Origin: Ampullaceana balthica
Taxonomy: Eukaryota; Mollusca; Gastropoda; Lymnaeidae
Length of the DNA: 64,000 bases
Assembly (NCBI GenBank): GCA_944989445.1
Contig: CALYLW010000209.1
Span: 211,001-275,000 of the forward strand
Direction: 5' to 3'
Shown: positions 10,624-28,600 of the stretch, one piece after another
Layout of the letters: every line of letters begins with the position of its first letter
Numbering within the stretch: position 1 is the first letter of the stretch
Notes under the pieces: generated by a model
The model's database searches: none
What the model saw: the letters and a program-made list of their open reading frames with translations, nothing else
What the model was told of the DNA's origin: nothing
Translations under genes and position numbers: made by a program

Positions 10624-13600
10624 GGGGGAGAGAGAGAGAAAGAGAGAGCAAGAGAGAGAGATATATATTAATTGCTGTTGGCTGAAGACAGGCTTAATTT
10701 GTTAACGTGTTGTATAACATGGTTGGTGTAAAAAAATATATATATATTTTATTGTACACTATGGAGACCATATGACATATAATTATGGACTTGTTATTCA
10801 TAGTAATAAAAATATTGGAAACAACTTTTTAAAACTTAATCTTTGAAATTTTTACAGATTGGAGATTGTGTGCTTTCATTTTTTTATAACTGTGGTTTAA
10901 ACAAATTAAAATGTTTGTTTTGAATGAAATCAACAAATCTAAAAAACAATGGCACTGATATTTTTCTCCCATGCACGAAAATCCACTCAGCTAATTCCCT
11001 AATTATGTGGCAACCTTATATATATATATATATAATATTATATAAAATGCACTGGTATTTATTATTTAACCAAGAGTTTTGGGACATATAATAAAAAAAC
11101 ATTTGTTCACTTACCTATTAGGTTTTACACTTTCTACATGATCTGGCTCCTCTGGAATATCACATCGACTATTGGTATAGAATACATGAAATAATAATTA
11201 AATTTATATGCTCAGCTAATTCTCTACAAAATAATATAAACTATTTTGGTTGTCACGTGCGCCTTGCACACGGAAAGTCCTGAGTTCAAGCCCCAGCGTG
11301 AACATTTTATTTGTTTAATTTTTAAAAATGTTTGTTTCTGCTTTTTTTCCATTACTTCGTGCTGCTGTTTGTGTCCTTTCTTCCCCCCCCCCGTTCTTTG
11401 CACTATCTACGATGAGCAAGCTACGCCATGGGTCATATCTCGTACTATATAATATAGATCACAGAAACACTCTGTAATAAACCCAGATAATCTTAATTTC
11501 TAATGAACAAAGAGTTTCTTACAAAAATAACACGGACATGTTAGGTGTGTATTGTTTTCTAGTGTTGTATTTTAGTTCTGAATATATATTTTTTTTACAA
11601 ATGCTCGAGTTTTAATTGAATTAAATTTGTTGTAAAAAAAAAGGTGAAGAAATTAATTATCAATAGATTTTGATGGTATGAAAAATCTGTGTGTTAGTGT
11701 AATAAGGGGAAGAATTCTTATAAAGTGCTTCATTTAAATGCATAATCAAAATACATAATTTGCAATGTATGTCCTGTCCATCCGTCGCACCCGTGACGCT
11801 ACTAATTTTAGAAAGCAGCGCACCAAATTACTGCACCAAAAATAAATCTTTTTGAACGTTCCGCATAAAATTGTTCAATATGAAAATAAATGAATAAAAT
11901 AAATATAAATAAAATAAATGAAAGTTCTGTATTACTTTATTTTTTATTCTGATGTGCATTTGTTCAAAATAAAGAGATTTCAGCTGAAATGTATTTATTC
12001 TGAAAACTTCCGTCATTTCATTTTTGACGGTTGATACACTAGTTTGTTATAAATCTTTAGCAGAAGAAAAGTTCTCTCAACTGTTTGCTGTAACATATAT
12101 TTCAATGGGCTGCCTAGGGAGACACGGGGCTCAAGTATAAAATATTAATGTATGTATATGTTCTTACTTGTACATTGTCAGGGTATGAGAATCACTGCGA
12201 ATGATTGTGGTGAGATTGTTGTGAGCCAGTGTTGGAGTCGGGTCAAGGCGTTGTTGACGGGTATGAACTCCTATCACGTGAATAATGTCTAGTGATGTCT
12301 GAGTGAACTTCTGGTCACACGGGATATGTCAGGGACATGACCAGAGGACACGCCAGGGTCAGTTGAGACCAGTTGGGGGGTATATAAGAGAGTAGTCGAG
12401 ACGAGTGCGGGGGTGTGGCAGAAAGCTGTGTAGTTCGCACAGTGTTGTGCGGTCAGACCGGTCAGGATAGACCGGGGAGCTGCAGGGTTGCAGTAACACA
12501 GAGAGTTGAGTTTAACGTCGCCCAGAAGCGGTCGGGTCGGACCCGAGGGCATGCTTGAGCATACAGCCGTTATATATAGATGTATTTTATGTCAAGGCAA
12601 GACAGCCAGTTGTACAGTTGTTTATAGTAGAATAAACATTGCATCGTTACACAGACTTGTGTCATCTCTTGTGTATGTTGTGTGTAGCGGAGAGCAAGGT
12701 ACAATCCACCTAAACATAGAGACTTAACATACATGTTGTCAGGATTCATGAAGCAGTACCATATTTCTGGTAAAAGATTCTTATTAGTTGAATGTGGTAG
12801 TCGACGCCAATTTCGACAATGATTACATTGTATCCACAGCCAATCTGGTAAGTTACTGTTTAAGAAAAAATAGCATATACACATCTAGTGCAGGCTTCTA
12901 CGGTGTTCTTATTTAAATATTAGAACTTCCATAAAAAGGTATGAATATGTTTACCCAAATTTTTTAACATGATTTTTTAAATTTAAACTTCTTTGAAATG
13001 AGACACATTTTTTTATATCTTAAAGAAATAAAATCTGAAATGAATATATGGCAAGTTTAAATTATAGTTTGTGTTATATTGATTGAGCCTAAACTATACA
13101 ATGATTCCATGGAAGATCCTACATAGAAACATTGCATAGAAAAAGCTACATGTATTGGGTTATCTGCAGGGCTAAGTGCAAAAATATTCAATTGTATTTC
13201 CATGTAAGTAAAAACCATTTTTAAAGAAAGTGCTAAGGGGCCGTCCATAAATGACATCACGTGCCTAGAGGGAAGGGGGGAGGGTGTCATGCATTTGCGA
13301 CGAGGGGGAGGGGGGGGTGTTAATAAATTTGACATCACATCAAAAATGCACAACTTTAAATAAAAGTATATTAGATTGCAGACTTACTTTAAATACATAT
13401 TTAAATTACAAAAAAGTAATTTGTAACATGCTAATTTTGAAATAGAAAATACGGCTTTTAAGGGGGGGGGGTCAAAGCTTTGTGATGTCATATTGGAGGG
13501 GGGTATAACTTTTTGTGACGAAGTGTGATGTGAGGGGGAGGGGGGTGAAAATCAAGTGACGTCATTTATGGACGGCCCCTTAGTTTATTAAATTTTTTAA

Positions 13601-16600
13601 TGATAGTTTTAGATTTCAATGTCTCTTTCATTTTTCAATTTTTTTGTGTGTGCTGATGACAAAGTTTGATGTTAGTCAAAATTATAACCATAACCTTTTT
13701 AAATCCCTTATATTAACTTCACCGCCGTCTCTGTCGTTTGTCGTCGGGCGGGCGGAAAAACAAAAGTAAAAAATGACCCACTTCCTGTGAAGCCATCAAG
13801 CTGAAATTTGGCACGTAGACCCGTGTCACCTAACAATGCATTGTATCAAAATTTCAGATCGATCGAATGTACCGTAATTAAATTAATACATTTTTAGTTT
13901 ATCTCTATACAACCAATGTAATTCAATTTCACTGTTTGTTATTGTTTTTTTTTCATGTGACAGTTCAGTCACGCGTTGACGCTCCCGTCGATGCCCACAC
14001 TCGCTCCCGTCCCTTCCCCCATTTTTAAGGCCAGGGGATATCACTCGGTGTCAGTCTGTAAATGTTTGTCGCCTTTGAACATAATCAATACTTTTAGTTA
14101 TGTCTCATATATAAGGGATTTATAGTCAAAAACTTTGTTTTTACAGGTTTGTTTTATTATTACATTTAGTCACAGATCAACATCTTAATTTTAAAAAATT
14201 CAACATAATGGCATTTTATTACTCATCTACTGAATTTTACTGATTTGAATACATAAACTTAGTTTTGGATTACTCACATTTTAGTAGTTTCACCTTGTTG
14301 ATCTTTCTCCACAATTTTCAAGTATTGATTTAGTTTGACAGCTAAGTTGAAACATACTGGACTGTTAATTCATGGGAAATTATTTAAGTTTTATAAAGAT
14401 ACTGATATTTTGGGTTAAAATGAAAAATGTAAAATGGTCAGTTAAAATAGCTGATATGCATATTTGGTTTAGATTGTTTCATTTAAGATTTGACATAAAT
14501 TGTGTAGTAAAAAATATTATTATAAATCACTCTAAATACTCTTTGAGGAATCACCTTATTTTATCTAATTTATGATATACATTCTTCTATGATTTATAAT
14601 TATAAAATGTATAATATTTAGTTATTTACTTGTATTTGTCATCCCTAACAAAATCTTGCTTGTTCTGTGTTGTGGTTAACATGTCCACTTGCACCACACC
14701 CACCACATCAACACCACGACCTGTGTTCTAAACAAAGATAACAGTCATTAAGGACTCAAAATTTTTTGTCTATAAAAGGCTTAGCTGTTTATTTATAAAC
14801 TTGCTTCACCCAAGAGAGTGTTGGTAAATTTAAACAACTTCTGGCATCTATAATATTATTTGAAGCATTATTTTATTGAGTGGGGTGTTATAATCTCAAA
14901 TAATTACATGCTGTATGTTGAAAAAATGCAGTTCTTTAAAACAGTTGAGCGACAAACATCATACATTTTTTTTTATAATTACACAAAAAGAACGTGTTTG
15001 TAAACCAATTATGAGTCTACATTAGTGAAAAATTATTTCTCAGTTGCTCAGATTTTAAGACAAAAACAAATTATTCATGGTTGTTTTAATACTTTCTTTA
15101 AGGAATATGAATTTAAATAATGAAAAACTTATCCCGAATTTGGCTTGTATTTAGAAATACAGAAATATCTCACAGATTTACATTTTTCTCTTTATACAAT
15201 CTATTGTAATTTAGTTATTTGTGATTTTTTTGTGGTGCAGAGTAAACTCCCTTGTTTTTAGTGTTTTGTTGCAGTAAAATAATCAGTTTGTAACCCAAAA
15301 ATATTATAAACAATAATTAATATTTATTTCAAGAATTAGTTTTAATGAAAATAAAATCATATCACAAAACACACAAATGAATTTTGATTGGGATGGTCTT
15401 AAAATGTAAACTTTGCAATTATTTAGATATTAGTATTATGTATACCCTAAAGAATATCTTATCTTATCTTATCCGTTTACAGACGCTCCTTCTATACAGA
15501 AGATTATTGCGTCCTACGCTTATCTATGGTTTGTGTTTAGTCCTGCATTTTTATTAGAGATTTAAATGTTGATAAAGTGTTGGTTTTCCTGGATTCTTCA
15601 GGCAACCCATTCCACGCCCGAATTCCGGATGGGAAGAAGGAAAACTTGTATGTGTTTGTTCTTGCATACGGTATAAGAAAGGTGTTTTTATCCTTATGTC
15701 TATCTGAGGGTTGTATTAAGTTATCTTTGTGTTGTATTTCTAAATTAGAATTAATTGCTTTATGTATGATTACTACTTTGCTCTTGGTTCTTCTATCCTC
15801 TAGTGTTTCAAGGTTTAATGATTTAACTAATGGTGTTACTCTTGTCAGTTTCGAATATTCTCCAGTAATGAATCTGGCAGCTCTTTTTTGAATTTGTTCT
15901 AGTTTATCAATGTTTTCTTTGGTGGATGGGTCCCATAAAGAAGATGCATATTCTAGTGCAGGTCTCACCAAAGTGAGGTAGCATTTTAGTTTTATATCTC
16001 TATTACATTTGTTAAAGTTCCTTTTTATAAAGCCTAAGGTTTTGTTTGATTTTTTAATAACTTCATTGACATGGGGATTCCATGATAGTTTCTCATTTAT
16101 TAAGACTCCTAAGTATTTTGCATCTTTAGTTTGGGTCAGTTCTTTTCCATGAATGTAATATTTTGAATTTATTTGTTTCTTTTTCTTTGTTACTCTTAAC
16201 AGTTGACACTTTTCTGGATGGAAAGACATACTCCAGTTAGTTTCCCATTTTATCAATTCATCTAAGTCTTTTTGTAAAATTTTGCTATCTTGTTCTGATT
16301 TAATTGTTCTATAGATTATACAATCATCAGCAAATAGCCTAACTTTTGTACCTGTTGAGATGTTGTTGGGTAAATCATTTATATAAATTAAAAAGAGTAA
16401 GGGACCTAGCACAGTTCCTTGTGGAACTCCTGAGTTAACCTTTATTGGTGCAGATTTAGATCCATTAATTATTACAGTTTGCTCCCTGCCCAAAAGGAAG
16501 TCTTGGATCCAGTGATGTAAGGAACCTGAGATTCCAAAGTAGTTAAGTTTTTTAAGTAAACTAAGGTGGTGAACTTTGTCAAATGCTTTTGAGAAGTCTA

Positions 16601-19600
16601 GTAATATTGTATCTATTTGATCATTTTTGTCCAAGCCTTTTGATAGTTCATCTATTAAACCTATTAATTGTGTTTCACATGATCTGTTTTTTCTAAAGCC
16701 GTGTTGATGTGGGCATAGGGCATTATATTTGTCAAGGTGGTTAACTATTCTACTATATATTATGTGTTCTAGTAATTTACAGGTGATACTAGTAAGTGAT
16801 ACAGGCCTGTAATTACCAGGGTCTGATTTATCCCCTTTCTTAAAGAGTGGACTTACATTAGCTAATTTCCAATCCTGGGGCACTTTACCCTGGTTTAGAG
16901 AGGCTTGAAAGAGAACTACAAGGATTGGGGACAGTTCATTGCTTAGTTCTTTTAATAATCTTGCAGGCAAATCATCTGGGCCAGTAGCTTTGTTTATTTT
17001 TAAGTTTTTTAGGAGTGAATGTATACCTATCTCATCTACAGTTATGTTACCTATTTCCTCCATTTTATTTAAATTTATTAAAGCTTCCTTGTCGCCTGAG
17101 GCAGAAAAAGATGATGCAAAATATGTGTTAAGGATATTAGCTTTAGTTTCATTATCATTATAGGTTTTATTATTTGAGCCTTTTAGTGTGGCTATTCCAG
17201 AAGGTTCCATTTTTTTAGATTTGATAAAGGACCATAAGTTTTTATTGTTATCTTTGGTAATTACATTGTTTATATATTCATTTTGGAGGTTCCGACTAAG
17301 TTTTTGTGTCAAGTGTTTAATCATTAATATATTTAAATATAATAATAATAATATTTGAAAATTTATATAGCGCTGTATCCCAGCAAGGAGCCGAGCTCAC
17401 AGCGCTTAACATGGAGATAATAACATACATATACTAACTAAATAAACATTCATATCATAATAACCACATAAATGACAGTACGATACACATAAGCTACGTT
17501 AATCATTTAAAAAGAAATGTTGTTTCATTAATTTTGAAAATAAATTTTGAAAAGATGTGTATTAAGTGCATTCCTGAAGGACTTAGTAGTTGAAATACTC
17601 ATTTAAATAAAATAATCTAGTCATCTCCCATACATATATAGTTGTTTATCATTTTACCTGTTTCTGGCATCCAACCTTTTCATATCCTTTAATTAACCTG
17701 TTCCTGTGGTAAAGCATCATGCCATAATCTTTTGTTAAGCCGTCTTCACAAGTAAAACCAAATGTCATGGCAAGAGTTGTGTCCTGGAAGCCACACAAAA
17801 AAAGGAAAATTGAAATAGGAAAAAAAAGGATTAATTAATTATTGTACAAAAATCATTCTTTTTTATTTATAGTTTCATTCTAAAGCATATAACATAAAAT
17901 TATTTATTAAAAAAATGTATCTACATTATTAACAGCAGTAAAAGAGTGGTTTCCATCTGAAGTGCCTTGATAATGTTAAAATTATTTATTCTTTTTCTTA
18001 ATGAAAAACATTTTAAGCGCAAAGATAGATTTATTACGGTTAGTTACTTATGCTGCTGGATATAAAAAGGAGGTAGATGTCACAGACTACTTGAATAGCT
18101 CAAAACTACACACTTGTGCACTTCAGATTACCTTATTTCAAAGTCTAAATATAAAAAGTATTAATATTCTGATTCAATTATTAGCTCTTTTACCTTCAAT
18201 CCTTAAAATCTCTAATTTAAACCTGCCTTTAAAATGTCATTAAAAAAAAACTTAGTTGATTGGTAGCCTACTAAGGTAACATTTCACTATTTCTACCACT
18301 CATATATTTCAAGACTTTGTACATTTCAAAAATATCTGCTAATCCAATGTCACACAGGGCCAAAAGTTTTGTTAATATTCAAATGAATAAATGTAGGGAA
18401 AATTTTAAAAAGAGTGAGTCTACCATCTTAAATTGTTTAACTTTCCATTTTCTTGATCTACAAATGAAATAAATAAATTTAGACATTTTGTTTCATTAAT
18501 CATGTTATTACATATGTTTTCTTATAAATATACCCAGCTAATCATACAATTGAAAATACCTTTTTATATGTATAATAAAGCTTTCTGGTTTGCCTCAAGG
18601 ACTTTGCAAAATATTTATTTTGGACATCTTTTCCTCGAATAACAATTTTCATTCTAGGACGAAAGTACAGAATGCTGCAGTATTCCTGAGAATATAAAGG
18701 CAGACAGTTGTAAAAATATGTAATACAAATAAATAAATATGATGTAAAAAATAACTTTAACTTAAACAGCTCTCCTAAAAAGTGATTTTTAAACTTTTAA
18801 ATACAAGAATATTAATGTCAACTTTTTAAAAAAATATTAGTTATATAAAATTTATTAAAATAACAATTGGTTGTTAAGATAAAATAGTATTCAGTGCAGA
18901 GCTTAGATTACTTGTAAACAAAGTTTAAATTCAAAGAAAAATGACAGTCAAAATGATATTTGAATTCAAGAATTTGTCCGTCTATTCAAGTTAAATTCTT
19001 ATAATTGCTAATTGTCTTTTTTTTGAAGTTGTCTTTTTTTTTGTTACAAGATAAAAATAAAAATTAAACATGCCTTAAGTGATTGCTTGTATTCTGATAA
19101 TCTTTGTTCAGTAGGTCTGTTGTCTGGTTTTGTTTTGTCAATTTGATGAGCCGCGGGACATCTAACGTCTGTCACATCACTTGAAAAATCTAACTCATAT
19201 CTTCCATCTTCCAACCTGTAACAAGTGAATTTTTTTTAAAACTTCTGCAAACATGATAAATATCAAATATTAAAACTATTTTCAATTAATATATAGTTTT
19301 TGCAATATAGTAATTATTTAAATTAGAAAAGGTGAATCATAAAGCTTAGCAAACTTTCAAAAAACAGCTAGAATTAAATGCCATGTGGTTTGATGTATTT
19401 ATTGAATATTTTATTAATTTTATAAACTCTAACTTGTTAACCACATTAACCCTAACTTGTAAACCACATAAAGACCATTAAGCCCTAACTTGTTAACCAC
19501 ATCTTGGGGGAGCTACCATCTCCTACCAAGCGCGTCCTCAGGCGGTGGATAGAGGAAAGACCTTTAGATATAAAGGTTAGCCGTGAATATTGAATAAGCG

Positions 19601-22600: not shown

Positions 22601-25600
22601 GTTAAAACGGTCCTACTTTATGGATCCGAAACATGGCGGACGACAGAGACAACAAAAAATAGACTCCAGACCTTTGTTAACAGATGCCTCAGAAATATTC
22701 TGAAAATAAAATGGTTCGATAAGGTCGAAAACTCCAAGCTGTGGGAGAGGTGTGGACAAAGAACAGTAGAACAACAAATCATGGAAAGAAAGTGGAGATG
22801 GATTGGACACACCCTCAGGAAAGATAACAGCAGGGCTAGGCAGGCCTTAGATTGGAACCCCCAGGGCAAAGCGACAACGAGGAAGACCCAAGCGTACATG
22901 GAGACGGAGCATGTTGGACGAGGCTGGAAGGACTGGGAAGAGCTGGGAAGAACTGAAGCGACTGGCAAGGGACCGTGTAGAGTGGCGAGCTTTGACAGAG
23001 GCCCTATGTTCCACAAGGAACTCAAAGGACAAATGATGATGATGATGTTAACCACATAAAGACCATTAAGCCCTACGTGTTAACCACATGAAGACAATTA
23101 GTTGGGAGACCAGAGACCACCACTTTCGGTAGGACATCCTAATCCCAAAATAGTGGATATTATAAAAATTGAATCCATGAATGCTAGATAACAAAAAAAT
23201 ATATTTTCTTTATATAAATGGCTGTTGTGAAAAGTCAATGAATCTATTCATCTTTAAAAAAATAACAAAGAAATATAATTACTTTTGTAAAGAGAAGAAT
23301 TTAAATATTTATGGAAATAATTGAAACCAATGCAACTTATATTTTTTAATGTCGACTTGTTGGGGTACATCAATGATTTCATGTAGAGTATGTTGCTATT
23401 TTTTATATGAGGGGCTGTGAGCCCAGATGCTTGCTCGAATACTGCACTATATAAACTATCAAATTATTATTATTATTTAAACTGCTTAACACACATAAAA
23501 AAATTTACTTTAATTTCTTAATTGTTAACACATTCAAAATTATAGTTAATGCAATATGTATCAACTTGTATCAATTTTTTTTAAATGCCAATGTTTATTG
23601 TTATTTTTTGTATATCAGGTCTGCACACAAAGTTGTCAATAGCAGAAATGATTAATTTACTAAATCTATTATGTCATCTTTGTACCTTAATTAATACATG
23701 AAACAAATAATAGTATTAGTAATATCAATAACAATCATGTCATGGCAAAAGTGAGCTTAGTACGATTGACAGATTGCTGATGATCAGAGGAAATATTTAA
23801 AAACAACAGAAAAGCCTCACTGAAAGCATTATATTCAAAACAGAAAACATGGGGATTACTGTTCAAGGATAGATCATCAAGGTCTTTACAAAATACATCC
23901 CAAAAATTGACTGAAGATGTCCAAATAAATCATGGCAAGAACGTTTCATTCCGGAATTGATTTCATCAGCAATCTGCACACCCACAGCCAAGTTTAATAT
24001 TAATGATCAACTTTTACTGGTGAACCGCAGAACTTTATAATCCCAATTAAAATTAAATACGTAATTTGTTAATGCATAAATTAAATCATTTTTTCTCTTT
24101 TGGCTAGTGTGCAGAGTTGTATTGGTAACTATGATAACTAGATTTTTGTACACAAATTTGGTTTATATTTAAAGAAGATGTATTGCAACAACAAAACAAA
24201 ATATTTAATTAAAATTCCCACATTATTAAATATTTTGTTTGGCAAAAAAGAATTTTATGGGAGACTATTGTTATTGTACAATTTTTAAGTGTTGGATTTT
24301 ATAAAGCAAATCAACAAGAGTGTCTGAAAATAAAATACCCAAAACTTCACCTCTTAAGATTATAGATGATTATTTTGGTGCCAGTTGATGCTAATGACAG
24401 CTGTAATGCATGGATTTCCTTTTTAAGTTCTTCCTCTTCCCTAAAGAGAGAGTGTTGAAGGATCACTTTCAAGTTTTTCTGTTCTTCTAAACCCACTGAA
24501 AGTTGAAGTAGCCCCAGGTCAAGGAAAAATAATCATCATGCCTTTAAATTATCAAATAAACAGAAAAATGTGAATAACAAGGGTGTACCAGCACAATGTC
24601 GAGGCAAAAACACAAAAAGACCCAACAATATTTGAATTTGTTTACTTTTAGGTTAATAGATGGATAACATGTAAACAGGGTATGAGTGAGCCTGACAGGA
24701 TGTAACAGATTTTACGTGTAGATTTTACTCCACTTAAGTAGTAAAAATGAAAGGGGATTACTAAGATGTTTGCAACCACTCATAATTAACATCAGTACAT
24801 TGTATTTAAAATTGATTGCAATTTGAAATCGTTTACAATTATAATTATACCTGCCTATAAAAAGTAATATCTTAGTTTGACTCACATTGTTCCAGTTTAT
24901 CAAGTCTAGGAGGTTTTGAAAAAAAAAGGTATACAAGTTTTAATTTAAATTTATTAGTATTAGTGCTGAAAATGAAAGCATCTGGATACTTACTCCCACA
25001 GGTCATGGTTTTTACCTCTTAATATTATGTTATAATACAAGCATAACAAATAAATTGAACCCAAAAAAGCAGTTAGTTTTATCTTATCGCAAAACTTAAA
25101 TTTATTCACATATTTTTCTTGATTTTTCTTAACTAACTGCATTTAATATGTAATATTTTTTTTTAAAAATTCATTAATAATTAGTTTAATCAGACAAAAT
25201 TTCAAAAGGATATTTTGGGGAAGTTTGTAGTGGACTATTGGCACATCAATAGTTTCAGCTTTTATAGACTCCAAATATGTTTGAGACAGGAATCCAACTG
25301 ATGCAGTGTCTTTACATCTTGTAATCACTAAAACATCCTTGCCCAAACGCATAGAACCAGCCTTAAAACCATTTCCATATCTGCCAATAGCCTCATATGA
25401 ATTTTGTTTGTTGTATTCCTCTTTTTCAGAAAAGCCAAAACTAAATGTAAAATTTTATAAATCATTACAAAAATTTCATAATTAAAAATAAAAAAAGTAA
25501 GAAGCAGAATTCATGGAAATTTCAATTTATAGCACATGGAATAAATTTGTGATTCAGTTAAAACAAAAATATTTTATGTGCCATAAATTTAATAGCATGA

Positions 25601-28600
25601 CATTGATATAAATAGAATGAATATGTCAATGGTGGTTGAGCGGCATGTGCGCTCAGCTGGCGTACCAAGAGCCGTGGATATAAATGACTGTAAAGGCAGG
25701 GGTTTGTTCCCATAGCTTCGGTTGATTTACTCAAAATGTTTAAGCTTTGGGAAAATTTGATAGACATGTAATGACCAGGTGCCCAGTCTGATCAGCGCAA
25801 ACATTCGAGAATTCAAAAATGATTTAGGAGATTGGTGTAATTCAATTCTACAGCCCTCTTTTCATGGTTCCTTCTAATGCCATAAGCTTTGGATTTAAAA
25901 AAAAATTTAAACAGGGAGTTGACTGAATTGTAAGATAGTTGTAAATTATTGCAAAATATTTACTAAAAGATATTGAAGAGATTATCTTCTATGTCACTGA
26001 CATGAGTCAATAACATTGCTTTTTATACTTTAAGTCTTATTGCCAGAAGGGGTGTATCGGATTTCGGCTCTGGCTCCGGCAAATCCGGAATCCGGCCATT
26101 TTTATAAATCTGTTTCTGAATCCGGCTTCGGACAGATTTCCTTTATAAATCCAGCCAAATCCAGTTCCGGACGGATTTTTTAAATTTGAATCCGGTACAC
26201 CCCTAATAGCCAGTGATGCTACACATATAGACACTGTGAAACTGCAGCCCCCCTTTTTCCAAATAATATTATTGATAACATTCATTACAATAAGTGAGAT
26301 AACAGCAATTGGCCAGTATCACAGACTTAAGAATCAAGCATAAAGATAAATAATCAAAAAACGTGTGTGTAGAAATTAATGTTTAGATACCTGAGCATCT
26401 TGGTGAGGTCATTTTTATCCATGCCACTGCCATCGTCTTTGACAGTTAAACACAATTTGCCATTTATATCTTCTTTATTTATTTCAACTTTGTTTGCCCT
26501 GACATTTGGATCATAAGCATTGTCTGGAAGTAAAAGTTTTACTGTTGCACAAAAGAACATAGCTAACATAACAATAATATTTCACACTATTGTATTTACT
26601 AATTTACAATACCTTACTTTATCATTTTAATTACAGAATGAGACGTTTGCTGTACACAGAAGATTAGTGAAAATTATTAAGATTAAACCCTAACAGACGG
26701 TGTTTAAAAACTAGATGCAAATTTGCACTCTACCAGTAGAAGTGTCAGAAAGTGTTTAAAACTTGATTTAAATTAGAAGATTTTTTAACACATAATCATT
26801 TTTAAAGATGGTTTTAAACTTACCTATGAGTAAAGCTATAGCACCTAAATCCCAATAGTTTTAAACTTACCTATGAGTAAAGCTATAGCACCTAAATCCC
26901 AATAGTTTTAAACTTACCTATAATTTCAGCTATAGCACCTAAATCCCAATAGTTTTAAACTTACCTATAATTTCAGCTATGGCACCTAAAGCCCAATAGT
27001 TTTAAACTTACCTATAATTTCAGCTATAGCACCTAAATCCCAATAGTTTTAAACTTACCTATAATTTCAGCTATAGCACCTAAATCCCAATAGTTTTAAA
27101 CTTACCTATAATTTCAGCTATGGCACCTAAAGCCCAATAGTTTTAAACTTACCTATAATTTCAGCTATAGAACCTAAATCCCAATAGTTTTAAACTTACC
27201 TATAATTTCAGCTATGGCCCATAAAGCCAATGGTTTTAAACTTACCTATAAGTTCAGCTATGGCACCTAAAGCCCAATAGGCAATAGGTTTAAACTTACC
27301 TATAATTTCAGCTATCTTATCTTATCTTATCTGTTTACAGACGCTCCTTCTATACAGAAGATTATTGCGTCCTACACTTATCTATGGTTTGTGTTTAGTC
27401 TTGCATTTTTATTAGAGATTTAAATGTTGATAAAGTGTTGGTTTTCCTGGATTCTTCAGGCAACCCATTCCACGCCCGAATTCCGGACGGGAAGAAGGAA
27501 AACTTGTATGTGTTTGTTCTTGCATACGGAATAAGAAAGGTATAGCACCTAAAGCCAATGGTTTTAAACTTACCTATAAGTTCAGCTATAGCATCTAAAG
27601 CCCAATAGTTTTAAACTTACCTATGAGTTCAGCTATAGCACCTAAAGCCCATGTGTGGCTTGTTGCATTTGAATTAAGAAATTTTGGATGCACCTGAAAT
27701 TGAAGTTTGTATTACCATTAAAAATATTAGGCTCATTTATTAGACCATGTAATTTAAACATAAGTCTGTCTTAATATTATAGGATTATGTTATTATTAAC
27801 ATTCAATTAAACACTTATCCACTTTAAAGCACAGAAGGGGGGGGGGTTTACAGCTTATAAAGTACAAGGACTAAATTGAGTGATTGACATTTTTAAGGTC
27901 ATTCATCATTTAAGTTAAAAATATTTAAGTAGTAGCTTGTTCAAATGTATGAAGAATAAAAAAAAACCCGTAAAAACCAAGTTTTTGACTATAAATCCTT
28001 TATATAGGAGACATAACTAAAAGAATGTTCATTATAATGCGCAGTGCGAGACAATTCAAAAATACAAAATTTTAGTTATGTCTCGTAAAACATGTTTAAT
28101 ATAATGCGCACCAATCGACAATATATTTTTTTAAAGTATTGTCACTATAATACGCTCCGAATTGCGCAACAGGAAAGTATTAAAAAGGTCGTTCAATGTA
28201 ATACGCACCACGACACTATAACAAAAAAATGTAACATGTTACTACATTTAGTTACATAGAGATAAATAAATTAATCTAAAAATTTATTTATTTAATTAAG
28301 GTACATTCGATTTATTTGAAATTTTGATACATTATTTTTATCATCCGCACGAAACTGCCTGCAAAATTTCAGCACGCTACCTACGAGGAAGTGGGTTAAA
28401 AATATATCCAAAATATAAAGGATTTAATCAAATTAAACCCATTCCACCGTGACCTTGTCAAACAAAAAACGGTAACTCAACCCACCCAGAAAGACAAAAC
28501 TTTAACAATAGATTCTCCTCAATCCATTTTAAAATTTATGTATAACCAATTAAACCAATATATAATCAATAAATAATTTTTATGAATTTCACTGAGTTTC

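Follow-up and report, generated by a model that had tools for sequence, protein, structure and literature searches.

A solo long terminal repeat (LTR) interrupts the zinc-finger exon of a MORC3-like gene in Ampullaceana balthica, and the probable explanation is a recent, damaging insertion into a redundant gene family, with partial rescue by splicing and maybe still polymorphic. Throughout, "the window" means the whole 64,000-bp stretch of DNA analysed (C209:211001-275000, C209 being contig CALYLW010000209.1), and positions are those of the window unless a contig is named. We propose that a Ty3/gypsy-type element, with its integrase ahead of its reverse transcriptase, would have inserted very recently and antisense into the exon encoding the CW domain, and that recombination between its LTRs would later have left a solo LTR. 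This would have moved the native splice donor 559 bp downstream, behind a stop codon. Some transcripts may be rescued in frame, via a donor formed at the insertion junction (two residues fewer) or by exon skipping; on balance, the allele would be damaging or hypomorphic for CW function. Other MORC3-like genes retain an intact CW exon, and we propose that this is why the insertion is tolerated.

The LTR (12176..12729, plus strand, 554 bp, ends TGTCAGGG ... CTTAACA) is antisense to the MORC gene and lies between the two copies of a perfect target-site duplication, TACAT, at 12171..12175 and 12730..12734. The original prediction, made from the sequence of the window alone, gave the same length and duplication. 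TG...CA termini, the duplication and the absence of internal sequence mark it as a solo LTR, and the same LTR flanks full-length coding elements elsewhere in the genome. Its plus strand carries TATATAA at 12381 and AATAAA at 12631, and a comparison with phage and plasmid records gave zero matches, as expected for an animal element. The feature is a genuine insertion into the CW exon of a gene on the minus strand, and it separates the codon for zinc ligand 3 from that for ligand 4.

To date the insertion, we used the rest of the assembly (1.1 Gb, 3363 contigs). Scoring covered the 40 best of 1570 first-look candidates. One of these is the copy in the window, and the other 39 were all at 99-100% identity. 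Seven of the 39 were fetched: three have no mismatches, two have one and two have two, and gap positions number two in six copies and three in the other. Against one mismatch-free copy, that on C1346, the two gaps are single bases, and the one shown sits in a G run. With so many near-identical copies, three of the seven fetched being free of substitutions, the insertion must be very young.

All three other insertions of the family for which both ends were read have 5-bp duplications as well (TTTAT, CTGTC and ATTAC). ATTAC belongs to another solo LTR, and CTGTC flanks a full-length copy at C1346:185987-193345. This copy has TGGGGGCCCG after its 5' LTR (a primer-binding-like site, labelled by position) and AACGGAAGAGGGGGGATA before its 3' LTR (a polypurine tract, also labelled by position). 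Its domains run from a zinc-knuckle gag-like frame to integrase and then to reverse transcriptase and RNase H. An integrase before the reverse transcriptase is the order that, according to an excerpt of PMC6238403, marks the Gmr1 clade of Gypsy elements. The full-length copy shares with that clade an integrase upstream of a gypsy-type RT/RNase H, which suggests a young Ty3/gypsy-type family of Gmr1-like order, an assignment made here by domain order alone.

Two further LTRs, at 96% identity, lie at C209:185883 and C209:190719. A shorter element with related LTRs occupies C209:185883-191278, and its two LTRs are identical over the 541 bp compared. Its single frame, of 720 aa, matches no Pfam family and resembles gag weakly (32% over 81 aa), so the element is perhaps a non-autonomous derivative.

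The host gene was modelled as 13 minus-strand exons, which form one open frame of 558 residues if the junction donor is used. The model spans C209:207583-238693, from exon Ea (starting at window position 27693) to the stop-bearing exon Em (C209:207583); no true first exon was found upstream of Ea, and more exons between El and Em are possible. The exons in the window are Ea (27621..27693), Eb and Ec (26391..26523 and 25214..25440, both GHKL ATPase), Ed (24351..24501), Ee (19074..19215), Ef (18560..18685), Eg (17658..17783), Eh (14630..14727), the exon preceding the CW exon (14278..14361, donor AAT|GTGAGT), the CW zinc-finger exon (12733..12855 if ended at the junction donor) and the exon after it (11115..11168), which contains RCDIPEEP and carries the fourth zinc Cys. 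El, at C209:210393, is beyond the window. Since it opens with a codon for Cys in paralog A (His here), El was at first considered to follow the CW exon directly, and this was dropped once the RCDIPEEP exon was found at 11168.

We call the gene MORC3-like because it encodes a GHKL ATPase followed by a CW domain, which Pfam recognises as PF07496 in the joined CW peptides and which has the four zinc Cys. MORC3 proteins have the same arrangement, and MORC3 CW chains in the PDB are the best sequence matches; what sets this paralog apart is the LTR that parts the codon for zinc ligand 3 from the codon for ligand 4. Across the ATPase part, the 558-aa model matches MORC3-like proteins, and its two top protein matches, among the best 120 of 1285 listed, come from the freshwater snails Biomphalaria and Lymnaea. 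A protein of this very gene was found neither among those 120 nor in a second search (one match of one). The 13 modelled exons contain no frameshift or stop, so a pseudogene was rejected, although this speaks to the modelled exons and not to function after the insertion.

Some introns of the model have unusual features of their own. A 47-bp tandem array lies at 26811-27315 (10.6 copies) and 27541-27651 (2.4 copies). Its unit is the 3' end of exon Ea plus the splice donor of that exon, so an exon end with its donor is repeated about a dozen times more within the first intron of the model. The intron between Ec and Ed (25214 to 24501) reads AAA|ATATCCTTTT ... TTCCTTGAC ... CTTCAAC, with similar signals in paralogs A and B, and it resembles a U12-type AT-AC intron. 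Exon Ee has a GC-type donor at 19074 (AAG|GCATGT), and the corresponding donor of paralog A is AGG|GCAAGT.

Paralogs show what the exon looked like before the insertion. Paralog A (on C145 and C253), which is 88% identical over the CW exon, has an uninterrupted site reading NPDNLY, AA|GTAAGA and then the following exon. Paralog B, also uninterrupted, has NPDSLY-AA|GTAAAA, and the Lymnaea stagnalis co-ortholog P0121 has NPDSMYNRC. Before the insertion, the site therefore read NPDNMYNRC, and these relatives bear out the original reconstruction of the empty site, including its phase and residue counts. A fragment of 248 aa from L. stagnalis shares 71% identity with the window model and 72% with paralog A.

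Beyond the LTR, the final 8 bases of the CW exon (ATGTACAA, 12168..12175, minus strand) are now orphaned, and with them the second copy of the target duplication; in paralog A they are continuous with the exon. They are followed by the native donor GTAAGA at 12162..12167 (CAA|GTAAGA, last exon base 12168, CW exon start 12855), which has been shifted by the 559 bp first proposed. Reading through to this donor meets a stop 54 codons after NPDN, close to the 50 or so originally given. As that stop is about 400 bases short of the exon end, RNA decay is expected, and we infer that transcripts extending as far as the native donor contain a premature stop and would be degraded.

The insertion itself supplies a candidate for a replacement donor. 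The last three bases of GTATGT (12727..12732, minus strand) are the LTR terminus TGT, and the first three, GTA, come from the target duplication. With 12733 as the last exon base, CAT|GTATGT is in phase, and the earlier reading of AT|GTATGT as an in-phase donor that shortens the stretch from zinc ligand 3 to ligand 4 by two residues was correct. It is possible, though on the unlikely side, that this is the main donor of an accommodated allele, which would encode NPDN-I-RC in a protein that works with a loop two residues shorter. In support, the donor opens the whole 558-aa model, and the preceding exon of the same gene already has AAT|GTGAGT. On a matrix of base frequencies taken from general knowledge, the junction donor scores 2.27 and the native donor 3.67, and 28 MORC-family GT donors range from -0.1 to 8.5; the junction donor outscores seven of those 28, and of the 43 GTs in the exon/LTR stretch none but the native donor ranks above it.

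However, pairing with U1 points the other way: at -1.9 kcal/mol, the junction donor is the weakest of 30 (28 family donors at -3.0 to -10.3, the native donor at -4.5, and itself). A cryptic LTR donor at 12709 (TAG|GTGGAT, matrix 0.51) pairs better, at -6.0, but would shift the frame.

The shortened loop can be judged against homologs. Cys3 and Cys4 are separated by 10 residues in the empty-site form and 8 in the junction form. Among the 106 four-Cys homologs in the best 120 of 1285 matches, 104 have a spacing of 10 and two fish predictions have 7 and 9; none has 8, so the junction loop is outside the range that is normally kept. The other 14 of the 120 depart from the four-Cys pattern: five show a 10-residue Cys3-Cys4 spacing, two stop at the exon end and seven are without the CW stretch. 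Pfam still recognises the CW domain of the junction form, at 55.2 bits, which compares with 64.5 for the empty-site form and 47.0 for read-through.

The 13-exon model, which is open end to end with the junction donor, fits accommodation just as well as damage; a recently struck gene would be open whether or not it works. The chance of such a donor at the LTR edge was also estimated. When the 12-base LTR end was placed at each of 125 positions of the empty-site exon and the flanks joined, two positions, one of them the real site, gave an in-phase junction donor of at least the same score. The same two come out with either LTR orientation (about 1.6% per insertion). Because the donor was noticed after the fact and the family has many copies in the genome, it is no argument for selection by itself; it is a coincidence, uncommon yet not extraordinary.

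The original prediction offered a choice between a damaged CW domain and a donor of the element's own making. Either may hold, but the choice was incomplete because it left out two in-frame outcomes: skipping of the CW exon and splicing of the LTR as an intron. In the first, 14278-14361 would be joined directly to 11168, giving a MORC protein without its CW domain. The frame would be kept because the exons on either side are compatible in phase and the CW exon, without the LTR, measures 129 nt. We give exon skipping a small chance. Seven of the 120 listed homologs, snail and bivalve proteins included, likewise have no CW stretch or CW Pfam domain, but such predictions may be annotation errors, and the CW exon here retains a strong acceptor (score 6.4, the best of 12).

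In the second, the LTR would be spliced out as its own intron, from the donor at 12732 to an acceptor at 12195/12194, and the CW loop would gain seven residues, IDSHTLT, before MYN. The best acceptor-like AG in the antisense LTR, CATTCGCAG|TGATTC (12195..12196, minus strand), has CTCAC branch-like motifs 17 and 28 nt upstream. Of the 13 AGs scored in the LTR stretch, all more than 60 nt from the junction, it ranks first, and it outscores 8 of the gene's own 12 AG acceptors. From this site to the native donor, a 27-nt segment (12168..12194, minus strand) is in frame and stop-free, while the other three AGs that give a length divisible by three leave stops. Even so, splicing of this kind is very unlikely here: it depends on the weak junction donor, a 27-nt exon is short, and the acceptor weights are simple ones set from general knowledge. 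Hairpin-driven excision, such as SOS splicing, was also considered, from general knowledge.

A broader form of the idea is that the LTR family acts as a portable intron whenever it lands antisense in an exon, and that it made an in-frame variant of the CW loop here. Given any target duplication ending in GTA, its TGT terminus would complete a GTATGT donor, and the opposite terminus would bring an acceptor about 19 nt inside. We regard this as improbable. If it were true, a mobile element would have edited the zinc finger of a protein of the type that silences such elements.

We return to the preferred reading, a damaging insertion in a redundant family. Over 532 codons, dN/dS between the window gene and paralog A is 0.295 (dS 0.46); by region, it is 0.229 before the CW domain (362 codons), 0.228 within it (40) and 0.655 after it (130). 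For this comparison, Eb-Ek were taken from C145, El and Em from C253, and Ea was left out. These values indicate that the gene was under purifying selection, mostly before the insertion, since the paralogs have been diverging for far longer than the age of the LTR.

As for redundancy, the genome has 15 CW-type zinc-finger matches, a count not limited to genes shown to be MORC, and these include close paralogs with an intact CW exon. A second intact CW exon elsewhere had been named in advance as a possible objection to the reading of the exon; such exons do exist in paralogs, but none belongs to this gene. A second CW exon within the gene was considered and rejected, as the genome-wide search places a single CW match in the span of the model, C209:207583-238693. 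The contig has a further CW match at C209:181866-181991, which contains one in-frame TAG.

Some of the 15 matches are probably allelic copies, e.g., the C145/C253 pair, and these two contigs seem to represent two haplotypes that differ by large insertions or deletions. Exons Eb and Ec of paralog A are present on C145 and were not found in the first 90 kb of C253 searched. For the window gene, no alternative haplotype was found in the assembly: its CW exon and a 1.7-kb stretch of gene body each have a single 100% match, namely to themselves, and paralogs reach 89% at most. The allele may nevertheless be polymorphic, a suggestion that comes from the youth of the LTR alone.

Retroelement insertions in exons are usually lost before they can be studied. 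A nearly fresh insertion with close empty-site paralogs is a clean natural test of whether LTR ends can rescue splicing, and the same insertion tests how much change the CW zinc loop tolerates. According to PMC8516933, Morc3, a member of the family to which the host gene belongs, silences endogenous retroviruses in mouse cells; a disturbed CW loop would matter if this paralog works in a similar way. Among the papers listed by our literature searches, one of them with narrow terms, none reports this insertion.

Comparable cases are known from other organisms. In Drosophila vermilion, the retrotransposon 412 lies in an exon and is reportedly removed by splicing of the precursor RNA (Fridell, Pret and Searles, 1990). 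The likeness is an LTR retroelement in a host exon, with splicing maybe rescued by sites of the element; the differences are that here only a solo LTR is left, that it sits at the 3' exon edge with the native donor displaced, and that the case is known from DNA alone. Giroux et al. are said to have described in 1994 a de novo intron from maize Dissociation, and a 1996 paper reportedly dealt with Tc1 splicing in C. elegans. In these two cases, the target duplication and the element ends reportedly supply splice sites. They resemble ours in that an exonic mobile element is involved in splicing, but Dissociation and Tc1 are DNA transposons, whereas the element here is an LTR. Spliced insertions of elements in exons are thus already known, and the present case would add another.
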